NCBI RefSeq assembly: GCF_004924335.1
Contig: NZ_CP024633.1
Span: 4,650,001 to 4,714,000, forward strand
From: Mycobacteroides salmoniphilum
Lineage (GTDB): Bacteria; Actinomycetota; Actinomycetes; Mycobacteriales; Mycobacteriaceae
Direction: 5' to 3'
Length of the DNA: 64,000 nucleotides
Shown here: piece by piece, positions 6,688 through 12,382 of the stretch
Layout of the letters: the number at the start of each line of letters is the position of its first letter
How positions within the stretch are numbered: the stretch's first letter is position 1
Made by a program: the position numbers and the translations under genes
Notes under the pieces: model-generated
Told to the model about the DNA's origin: nothing
The model's input: only the letters and a program-made list of their open reading frames with translations
The model's database searches: none

Positions 6688-7860
6688 TCAAGCACCGGCA
6701 CGTGACTCCCACATGTCACGCCATTGCGCTTCCTCTTCCTGTTTGTCGCGATGCTGACCCGTGGACGGTTCGGTGAGTGTGATCGTCGGGTGTGGCAACG
6801 CGAAGAAATCACCTTTACCCTGCGCCGCGCGATGCTGACCGGTATCGAGGTAGCAGTACCCCAGTCCCGAGAGCTCTGCGGTCCGGTCGGACCTCTCGAG
6901 GTAGTGAAGTACGTTTTGGGCAGCGGCTTTTGCACCATTCTTGGCAAAGATGGCGGCCTTCGGCAGCGGCCTGCCCGACGGCGATGTCACCGACACGACA
7001 TCACCGATCGCCCAGATGCCCTCGTGCGGGGTCTGCATGGTCTGTGCATCGACGCCGATCCACTCCGGACCGTCGATGGTGACCGACGGCTCATGCGGCG
7101 GCACAAACACCAACAAATCGAAACTCACTGTGGCACCGTCCTTGAACACGACAACCTTCCCGTCGGGGTCCACGCGTTCTGTGGTGTGTTCACCATGGAA
7201 GATGACCTCGTTGTCCCTGAGTAACTGCACCAGCTGCGGCCCCGCATAGGGACCGGCCGAGGGCATGGGGTGCTTCTCCGGGGTGTACACGCTGATATCG
7301 ACATCCGACCGTATGCCCTTGTCATTCAAGAAATCCGAGGCTAGGAGGGCGCCCTCATAGGGAGCCACCGGACATCGGTACGGCTGTGATGTCACCAGGA
7401 AGACAAGCCTGCTTCCTGAGAAGTTTTCCAGGGCGCGCCTGGCATCACCGGCCGCGGCGACGCCGTAGTAGTGCACCGCGTCACCTCGGGCGGCCGCTTC
7501 AGTCAAGCCCGGAATCTTGTCGAGAGCATTGCGCGCGCCCGTGGCGATAATGAGGGCGTCAAAGTCCAGAGTCGAAGAGTCGGAAAGGGTTACGGTGCGC
7601 GCGTTGGGATCGATGCCAGCAACGGAGCCCGTCACGGTGGTTATCCCCGACAATGCATCGGAACTGGGCCGAATCGGCACACTCGCCGCGTCGCGCCAGC
7701 CTCGCATGACCCACGGCAAGGTGAATCCCAGAAAGTGCGAGAAGTGTTCGTCCACGATGGTGATGTCGAGGTCACCGAGTGGTACATGAGACTGGCGGAA
7801 TTCGTTGATCACGCTCAGACCGCCGATTCCGGCACCCAGGATGACAATCTTCTTCTTCAT
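6688..7860 (-). CDS. Sulfide:quinone oxidoreductase-like FAD flavoprotein
   Basis: A 390-residue two-dinucleotide-fold flavoprotein. The N-terminal 'KKKIVILGAGIGGLS' binds FAD, 'IIATGAR' is the second FAD contact and 'GIWAIGDV' the third. Both redox cysteines expected in the SQR/flavocytochrome c sulfide dehydrogenase group are visible: C163 in 'YRCPVAPYE' and C336 in 'GYCYLDTG'. Known SQRs oxidise sulfide to persulfide or polysulfide and pass electrons to quinone at the membrane. It lies 84 bases downstream of the DsbA-fold gene on the same strand, probably one operon under the CstR-like operators. An NDH-2-like role is less likely given the cysteine pair. Confidence 0.78.
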   Translation of the reverse strand: MKKKIVILGAGIGGLSVINEFRQSHVPLGDLDITIVDEHFSHFLGFTLPWVMRGWRDAASVPIRPSSDALSGITTVTGSVAGIDPNARTVTLSDSSTLDFDALIIATGARNALDKIPGLTEAAARGDAVHYYGVAAAGDARRALENFSGSRLVFLVTSQPYRCPVAPYEGALLASDFLNDKGIRSDVDISVYTPEKHPMPSAGPYAGPQLVQLLRDNEVIFHGEHTTERVDPDGKVVVFKDGATVSFDLLVFVPPHEPSVTIDGPEWIGVDAQTMQTPHEGIWAIGDVVSVTSPSGRPLPKAAIFAKNGAKAAAQNVLHYLERSDRTAELSGLGYCYLDTGQHRAAQGKGDFFALPHPTITLTEPSTGQHRDKQEEEAQWRDMWESRAGA

Positions 7861-7944
7861 GTTCTGCGTTCCCTCTTCCTGAACAGGCCCCTATGCACCG
7901 GAGCAGACGGTGGTGTGCCGTATCCGTCACACCATTGGCGGGCT

Positions 7945-8565
7945 CTAGTGCGCCGGGCGCGGACGCTGCAGCTGGGTGAATTCGGGCACCCCCGCAATCA
8001 CGGTGACCGCGTCAAAAAGCGCTCGCGCGTTGTCGTGCTCCGGCAACGCCGTCAAGACTGGGCCGAAGAAGGTACGACCGTTCACCTGCAACAGCGGGCT
8101 GCCGCCAACGTCTCCCAACGCCCGCTGCCCGGCCTCGTGAGAGGAACGGACCAACGCATCGAGCGACATGTCCGACAACGGTTCGCGTGGCGTCCACTGG
8201 GGTGCGACCGCAGCCAATACCCGATCGACCAGACGTGCGCCGACCGGCACCGACTCATCGAAATACAGCTCGCCGAAGGCGAAATACGCGGTGTGCAGAC
8301 CTCGCTGACCCAATTCACGATGGACGCCGGCCATCAACCGGCCCACCTGGCGCGAGTCATCCATGCGTGCTTGTTGCGCGGGGGGTAGCTCCCTGCCCTC
8401 ATTCAGGACAGCGAGGTTCATCAGCTGCCAATCGACCAGCAGGCCGGATTGGTCCGCGACCGTGTCCAGCCATCGCGCGGTGTTCCACGAGAACGGGCAC
8501 ACCGGGTCGAGCCAAATCCTCACGTCGAACGTATCGCTTTGCGCAGAACCATCGCCTGTGGACAT
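7945..8565 (-). CDS. DsbA-fold, mycothiol-dependent nitroreductase (Rv2466c)-like protein
   Basis: A 206-residue thioredoxin-fold protein. 'WLDPVCPFSW' aligns with the Rv2466c active site 'DPLCPWCW' as I recall it, so C23 is the nucleophile but the resolving cysteine is replaced by S26. A cis-Pro loop 'GGSPLLQVNG' and 'FFGPVL' follow as in that family. Rv2466c uses mycothiol to reduce disulfides and nitro-prodrugs; a CxxS site suggests a monothiol, mycothiol-mixed-disulfide mechanism here. ATG at 8565 was chosen for the upstream GGGAGA; a longer frame to 8652 would cover the leader. First gene of the operon with the SQR-like flavoprotein. Confidence 0.8.
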   Translation of the reverse strand: MSTGDGSAQSDTFDVRIWLDPVCPFSWNTARWLDTVADQSGLLVDWQLMNLAVLNEGRELPPAQQARMDDSRQVGRLMAGVHRELGQRGLHTAYFAFGELYFDESVPVGARLVDRVLAAVAPQWTPREPLSDMSLDALVRSSHEAGQRALGDVGGSPLLQVNGRTFFGPVLTALPEHDNARALFDAVTVIAGVPEFTQLQRPRPAH

Positions 8566-12078: not shown

Positions 12079-12112
12079 TGCCAGTAGCTAGGCGCCCTCG
12101 AAAGGTAAAGAC

Positions 12113-12382
12113 ATGATCGACGATCAAGACAGCATCACCGCGATCCTCAGCAGACTGCGCCGGGCCCAAGGGCAGCTGGGCGGCGTGATCAACATGATCG
12201 AAAACGGGCGCGACTGCAAAGACGTCGTGACTCAGCTGGCCGCCGTATCACGAGCGCTCGACCGCGCCGGATTCAAGATCGTCGCCACGGGTCTGCGGGA
12301 ATGCATCACCGCCGATCGCAACGGAGACACCGCGCCCATGACCGAGGCCGAACTCGAGAAACTGTTCCTGGCTCTCGCCTAG
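12113..12382 (+). CDS. CsoR-superfamily repressor, CstR-like (metal His absent)
   Basis: An 89-residue all-helical repressor with the family opening '[20 protein letters not shown]' and the two cysteines C35 ('GRDCKDV') and C64 ('LREC') at the 29-residue spacing seen in both CsoR and CstR. Copper-sensing CsoR has a His four residues before the second Cys; here that position is G60. Loss of that ligand with both cysteines kept is the pattern of the persulfide sensor CstR. Adjacent SQR-like and thiol-redox genes support sulfur sensing (inference). An RBS-like GAAAGG precedes the ATG. The gene follows mmpL by 34 bases. Confidence 0.85.

Follow-up and report, generated by a model that had tools for sequence, protein, structure and literature searches.

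A 64,000-nucleotide stretch of Mycobacteroides salmoniphilum DNA (the window; contig NZ_CP024633.1, positions 4,650,001 to 4,714,000) carries a five-gene locus encoding a CstR-like repressor, an MmpS-MmpL exporter, a flavoprotein with the fold of sulfide:quinone oxidoreductase (SQR) and an Rv2466c-like thiol protein, together with three copies of the palindrome ATACC-N6-GGTAT. On the basis of sequence comparisons across the genus, the regulatory core of this locus is probably a CstR-type sulfur switch that controls mmpS-mmpL, a reading to which we assign a probability of about 0.72. The arrangement suggests that export is part of sulfur-stress handling in these bacteria.

Operator sites and a distinct MmpL clade

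The pattern ATACC-N6-GGTAT occurs exactly three times in the window, at 8660-8675, 8713-8728 and 12061-12076 as an earlier note on this DNA had listed, and every copy lies in the five-gene locus, whose genes and sites were all found where that note had placed them. Genome-wide (4,776,697 bases, one contig) there are seven exact sites, three of them at the locus, and the same pattern read backwards occurs once. Four exact sites lie outside the locus, and the two that were inspected are inside open reading frames. Operator 1 (8655-8675, core 8660-8675) and operator 2 (8713-8733, core 8713-8728) form the left and right arms of a 21-nucleotide perfect inverted repeat, within which the two sites are mutual reverse complements, and both are located in the divergent promoter region of the locus. 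Operator 3 (12061-12076) overlaps the mmpL stop codon and lies 36 bases 5' of the repressor ATG. The sites had been said to flank all transcription starts; they do flank the promoter regions, but no starts have been mapped, and a sigma-70 consensus scan of 8560-8830 gave no promoter-like site. Among the loci of the MmpL clade described below, the core is often embedded in an extended TATACC-ATACC-N6-GGTAT-(A/G)GTAT consensus that suggests outer half-sites, and sites 1 and 2 of the window each have an adjoining outer ATACC half.

A Pfam profile search assigned families to all five proteins of the locus. The plus strand carries mmpS (8777-9265), encoding the accessory protein (PF05423; PDB matches MmpS4 and MmpS5), followed by mmpL (9262-12078; PF03176) and the repressor gene, with the SQR-like and Rv2466c-like genes running divergently on the minus strand. 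MmpL is an RND exporter of the MmpL4/MmpL5 class, matching MmpL4 (9syt) at 1232.6 bits, and has the DY pairs, coiled coil and MmpS partner of that class. Because the DY pairs are kept, along with the coiled-coil tip cysteines Cys577 and Cys583 (present in 90/90 rows of its clade), the exporter looks functional.

To place this exporter, 198 genomes of the genus were searched with four candidates scored per genome, so that counts refer to the matches listed. We fetched 89 neighborhoods and added 13 others; matches of ~58-61% identity lower in the list were left out, except for 12 sister-clade loci. In a FastTree phylogeny of 116 rows, the window MmpL fell with full support in a 90-row clade, apart from a 12-row sister clade and from 13 MmpL paralogs of its own genome. 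Within ~620 bases upstream, an exact operator was present in 78 of the 90 clade rows and one with at most one mismatch in 83, compared with none of the 90 for the reversed motif at the same tolerance. The operator was found upstream of neither the 12 sister-clade genes (nearest, three mismatches) nor the 13 own-genome paralogs (nearest, two mismatches). The 198-genome sample itself gave 91 clade loci, 82 on the tree and nine (L240-L248) assigned by identity; an exact operator precedes mmpS in 79 of them, and the number rises to 84 when one mismatch is allowed. Counted on the tree only, the exact operator is found at 70 of the 82 sampled loci, or 78/90 when eight named or plasmid rows are included. 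The genus-wide linkage of operator and MmpL clade is thus visible in the genomes themselves.

A cstR gene lies within 5.5 kb in 52 of the 91 loci. The operator is present with no cstR in the fetched stretch in 36, some of these stretches stopping at contig ends, and nine have cstR and no exact upstream operator. The operator is thus retained with mmpS-mmpL even at loci whose regulator gene is not a neighbor. Since most clade loci are without SQR-like and Rv2466c-like genes, the stable unit, judged from these neighborhoods, is the operator plus mmpS-mmpL. These counts also bear on the possibility that the genes simply travel together on plasmids and that the operator before mmpS regulates just the neighbors. 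The cassette does occur on several plasmids, and its gene order is shuffled among loci, but the 36 loci where the operator precedes mmpS and the fetched stretch has no cstR, and its absence from all 12 sister-clade loci, make such hitch-hiking highly improbable.

The class of the exporter is also relevant to its cargo. A sulfur-bearing cargo is a tentative proposal that we hold to be somewhat unlikely. Slightly less probable is a link to iron, in which the sensor would still respond to sulfur but MmpS-MmpL would export a siderophore, as sulfide removes dissolved iron; this would alter the cargo and not the switch. The main features of the MmpL4/MmpL5 siderophore-exporter class are present, and H2S raises siderophore genes of Escherichia coli through YgaV (PMC11481527), but the clade is separate from the other MmpL4/5-type paralogs of its own genome. 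Eight MmpL residues are specific to the clade, none of them a cysteine and none informative on cargo. The sister clade (L215-L217, L220-L224, L226-L228 and L231) is 61-64% identical to the window MmpL and has no operator or cstR in the fetched stretches. The window genome is rich in MmpL, with 33 matches, ~19 of them near full length and more than 10 at 48-56% identity.

The repressor and its candidate ligands

The repressor gene (12113-12382, plus strand) encodes 89 residues with the CsoR/DUF156 fold (PF02583; 80.1 bits, cut-off 22.8). Its cysteines are solely at positions 35 and 64, and position 60, which we take to be the His position of copper CsoR, is Gly, so that the Cys-His-Cys copper site of CsoR and RicR is not present. 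Among 76 repressor rows chosen at at least 52% identity, with some genomes present under two names, Cys35 and Cys64 occur in 76/76; residue 60 is Gly in 75 rows and Ser in the remaining one, never His. NCBIfam scores were far below the cut-offs for RicR (41.8 bits, cut-off 175), FrmR (29.6, cut-off 133) and RcnR (21.8, cut-off 138). The best PDB match is 7mq1, labelled csoR and presumably the Enterococcus faecalis CstR; its code was absent from the one paper checked for it.

Genes of sulfur metabolism are frequent around close homologs of the repressor. Sixty neighborhoods from 61 relatives were fetched and, with the window, gave 61 loci, in which Pfam searches of representatives identified MBL-rhodanese (29 loci), TauE (22), DUF302 (22), SQR (18) and rhodanese-YgaP (9). 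At least one exact operator was found in 51 of the 60 fetched stretches, and a full-length mmpL of at least 60% identity in 11 of the 60. The linkage to sulfide or sulfane-sulfur enzymes that marks a CstR is therefore seen both in the SQR-fold gene of the locus and in the neighbors of the homologs. The repressor's own regulon carries the ATACC-N6-GGTAT operator as three exact sites, a motif that is not specific to CstR. In Streptomyces coelicolor, the sulfane-sulfur sensor ScCsoR binds ATACCn6GGTAT and controls persulfide dioxygenase (PDO), rhodanese and TauE genes (PMC7533328). DUF302 recurs near both CstR (22/61 loci) and clade mmpL (23/91), for example in L076, L078, L159 and L165, and is a candidate sulfur-stress protein.

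At the genome level, a close CstR homolog was found in 168 of the 198 genomes, some of which are incomplete. All 84 genomes seen with the MmpL clade carry CstR, compared with 84 of the 114 others (Fisher p 1.6e-8, relatedness ignored). In a CstR tree built to count recruitments of mmpL (107 rows, ~89 residues), good support was limited to 6 of the 98 inner branches, and the 13 parsimony label changes on it were not trusted and not used. At one CstR locus (L072, 9427-9576), a 150-base stretch 80% similar to mmpL beside the repressor is probably the remnant of a lost mmpL; this neighborhood otherwise resembles those of L076 and L078.

The same residues and sites were considered in terms of copper or another metal, with the repressor as a divergent copper sensor or a RicR-type sensor acting on the sites, and MmpS-MmpL serving in metal defense. 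The published RicR site resembles the motif (PMC7533328), and the cassette plasmids of Mycobacterium avium and Mycobacterium kubicae also carry a gene for a four-helix copper-binding protein or a cation diffusion facilitator. However, His is absent from the ligand position in 76/76 repressor rows, and the RicR, FrmR and RcnR cut-offs are missed by far. Around the genome's other CsoR-type gene, which by eye encodes Cys-His-Cys, 4.5 kb of sequence contained no TACC-N6-GGTA site even with one mismatch allowed, which lowers the likelihood of copper control. Furthermore, the MmpL clade tracks CstR, and the CstR-less genomes seen still have other CsoR-family genes. We therefore regard a metal sensor as very unlikely.

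A more general thiol or electrophile stress, in which the repressor senses oxidants such as hypochlorite or electrophiles and MmpS-MmpL exports toxic amphiphiles, is less improbable than copper, although still unlikely. CstR features in a study of a thiol-specific oxidant in Staphylococcus aureus (PMC6299908), Rv2466c-like proteins are named mycothiol-dependent nitroreductases in Pfam, and such mycobacteria live in disinfected water (PMC10564925), but the repressor's close homologs show linkage to sulfane-sulfur enzymes. This explanation is compatible with persulfide sensing because one cysteine pair can serve both.

Partner proteins and the proposed circuit

The flavoprotein gene (6688-7860, minus strand) encodes a 390-residue FAD protein (Pfam Pyr_redox_2) whose AlphaFold2 model (mean pLDDT 89.1) gave human SQR as the best Foldseek matches (TM 0.83-0.85); human SQR is also its best PDB sequence match. 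Cys163 and Cys336, invariant in 33/33 SQR-like rows, take the positions of the redox pair when aligned with SQR and flavocytochrome c, so that the flavoprotein combines the SQR fold with both redox cysteines, as had been noted. Its score against the nearest SQR model, NCBIfam NF049943, is 180 bits, below the cut-off of 525; the canonical mycobacterial SQR also falls below it with 229.9 bits, which indicates that the model is narrow. The predicted structure includes a C-terminal helix at 367-385 that appears charge-rich by eye. No cytochrome subunit gene adjoins the flavoprotein gene, the neighbors being phosphoenolpyruvate carboxylase and the Rv2466c-like gene. At E<=1e-60, the SQR-like protein was found in 41 of 297 genomes, its nearest named relatives being from Mycobacteroides and Mycobacterium strains, and 18 named loci include an exact operator in 12, cstR in nine and mmpL in eight. 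Mycolicibacterium hodleri DSM 44183 (L106) is one environmental species in which the complete set occurs.

The adjacent gene (7945-8652, minus strand) encodes an Rv2466c-like DsbA-fold protein (PF22234; 119.8 bits, cut-off 27). Ribosome-binding-like stretches, identified by reading, point to ATGs at 8565 for this gene and 8822 for mmpS as likely starts, in preference to those of the longest open reading frames (8652 and 8777, respectively). The CxxS motif that had been described for this thioredoxin-fold protein is CPFS, which occurs in 38 of 42 rows, with CPFA in three and a gap in one. The locus copy does not have the dithiol CPWC of its 33% identical paralog in the same genome. A monothiol CPFS would be better suited to exchange with persulfide or mycothiol than to the reduction of disulfides.

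How sulfane sulfur would be disposed of was considered through PDO. The type that accompanies CstR (E<=1e-100) is present in 103 of the 198 genomes. Among the 168 CstR genomes, PDO is lacking in 54 of 65 carriers of the main MmpL branch and in 14 of 103 others (relatedness ignored), with the opposite trend in the second MmpL branch (lacking in 1/19 genomes). The window genome belongs to the main branch and contains no close PDO match, its best matches being partial and weak, and no canonical SQR, the best match being its own SQR-like protein at 26%. The dedicated MmpL clade could accordingly be an alternative disposal route where CstR is kept and PDO is lacking, with MmpS-MmpL exporting a sulfur-carrying or persulfide-damaged amphiphile instead of sulfane sulfur being oxidized. 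We consider this speculative and rather unlikely, and as the two branches are opposite in PDO, it fits only the main one.

For the sulfur switch itself, the gene identities, operators, key residues and operator-MmpL linkage are read from sequence, and we infer the ligand, DNA binding, enzyme activities and cargo as follows. A repressor tetramer on the ATACC-N6-GGTAT sites would silence both the repressor gene and the divergent promoter. A rise in sulfide or persulfide would lead to persulfidation of Cys35, with or without Cys64, after which the repressor would leave the DNA and the genes would be turned on. Sulfide may then be oxidized to sulfane sulfur by the SQR-fold flavoprotein. The CPFS protein may hand on persulfide carried by a low-molecular thiol such as mycothiol, or reduce it, and MmpS-MmpL may pump a product of sulfur stress across the envelope.

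Several observations weigh against this model. In Mycobacterium tuberculosis, the regulons of CsoR and RicR are reported to respond to GYY4137, an H2S donor, with raised expression as well (PMC7711268), meaning that sulfur and copper responses can overlap. The sites of M. tuberculosis RicR and Geobacillus thermodenitrificans CsoR are similar to ATACC-N6-GGTAT (PMC7533328), and hence the motif alone cannot name the ligand. ScCsoR acts through Cys37 alone with no inter-cysteine bridge, unlike CstR (PMC7533328), so that the repressor residues do not fix the mechanism. The association of CstR with MmpL is uncorrected for relatedness, and clade carriers were counted among the matches listed, with four candidates per genome. 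The exact upstream operator is absent from 12 of the 91 clade loci, and three have neither an exact operator nor a nearby cstR, although each of these has a one-mismatch site. Finally, the SQR-like gene is found in 14 of the 91 loci (absent from 77) and the Rv2466c-like gene in 30 (absent from 61). The regulatory half of the proposed sulfur-stress regulon, consisting of the CstR-like residues, the sulfur-gene neighbors and the operator before the MmpL clade, has good comparative support. Its chemical half, in which the repressor would sense persulfide and a sulfur species or thiol conjugate would be exported, is hypothetical. Genes for the SQR-like and thiol-fold proteins are accessory to the locus.

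Plasmid copies and known systems

The cassette is also located on plasmids of Mycobacterium intracellulare subsp. chimaera ZUERICH-1, M. avium, M. kubicae, M. madagascariense, M. branderi and M. crocinum, with varying gene order and content. CstR-mmpS-mmpL lies on 21-28-kb mobF plasmids of M. chimaera, M. avium and M. kubicae (NZ_CP015276.1, NZ_CP040248.1 and NZ_CP065049.1). The annotated M. avium and M. kubicae cassettes have no DsbA-type gene and include two FAD oxidoreductases and a DUF2892 gene, and on the M. kubicae plasmid a TnsA/TniB/TniQ-type transposon adjoins the cassette. The M. madagascariense plasmid has an unannotated SQR-like sequence in two pieces between the DsbA and mmpS genes, probably a broken copy. 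A Mycobacterium dioxanotrophicus plasmid with a related MmpL (54%) showed no cstR and no operator there. Genes of M. kubicae pMKUB1_2 and M. chimaera CP015276 have been described as mmpL4/mmpS4 and TP053 (PMC8115904); like the window, these plasmids carry mmpS-mmpL and an Rv2466c-like gene. That paper differs from the present interpretation in making no sulfur link, the words "sulfide" and "sulfur" being absent from its text.

If the sulfur switch is confirmed, MmpL4/MmpL5-type exporters, known for siderophores and bedaquiline, would be tied to reactive-sulfur sensing, both on chromosomes and on plasmids, in environmental mycobacteria and in those met in the clinic. The regulon would offer a testable way to approach the cargo of an uncharacterized MmpL clade, and export may be an end point of CstR regulons alongside oxidation. 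Our searches of the open-licence literature turned up no description of a sulfur-sensor-controlled MmpL, in agreement with the earlier note's view that an MmpL in a CstR regulon would be new. CstR-type regulons themselves are already known; the novelty is an MmpL exporter as a conserved output.

S. aureus CstR is a persulfide-sensing CsoR-like repressor that controls SQR and sulfurtransferases. Unlike the locus, its regulon is not known to include an envelope exporter of the MmpL kind. The S. coelicolor ScCsoR circuit resembles the locus in its two-cysteine CsoR-family repressor, its ATACCn6GGTAT operators and the sulfur-gene neighbors of repressor homologs (PMC7533328). It differs in that no MmpL, SQR-like or Rv2466c-like gene is described in the part of that paper drawn on here (PMC7533328), and the window genome differs in turn by its lack of a close PDO match. 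The flavoprotein shares its fold and two redox cysteines with SQR and flavocytochrome c sulfide dehydrogenase, but falls below the NCBIfam cut-off of the former and is without the adjacent cytochrome subunit gene of the latter. Rv2466c and the locus protein belong to the common PF22234 family, with Ser replacing the second active-site Cys (CPFS) in the locus copy. The exporter is like MmpS4-MmpL4 and MmpS5-MmpL5 in class, fold, DY proton-coupling pairs and coiled-coil tip cysteines, and is distinguished from the MmpL4 and MmpL5 siderophore exporters by its separate clade and the CstR-type operator upstream of mmpS.

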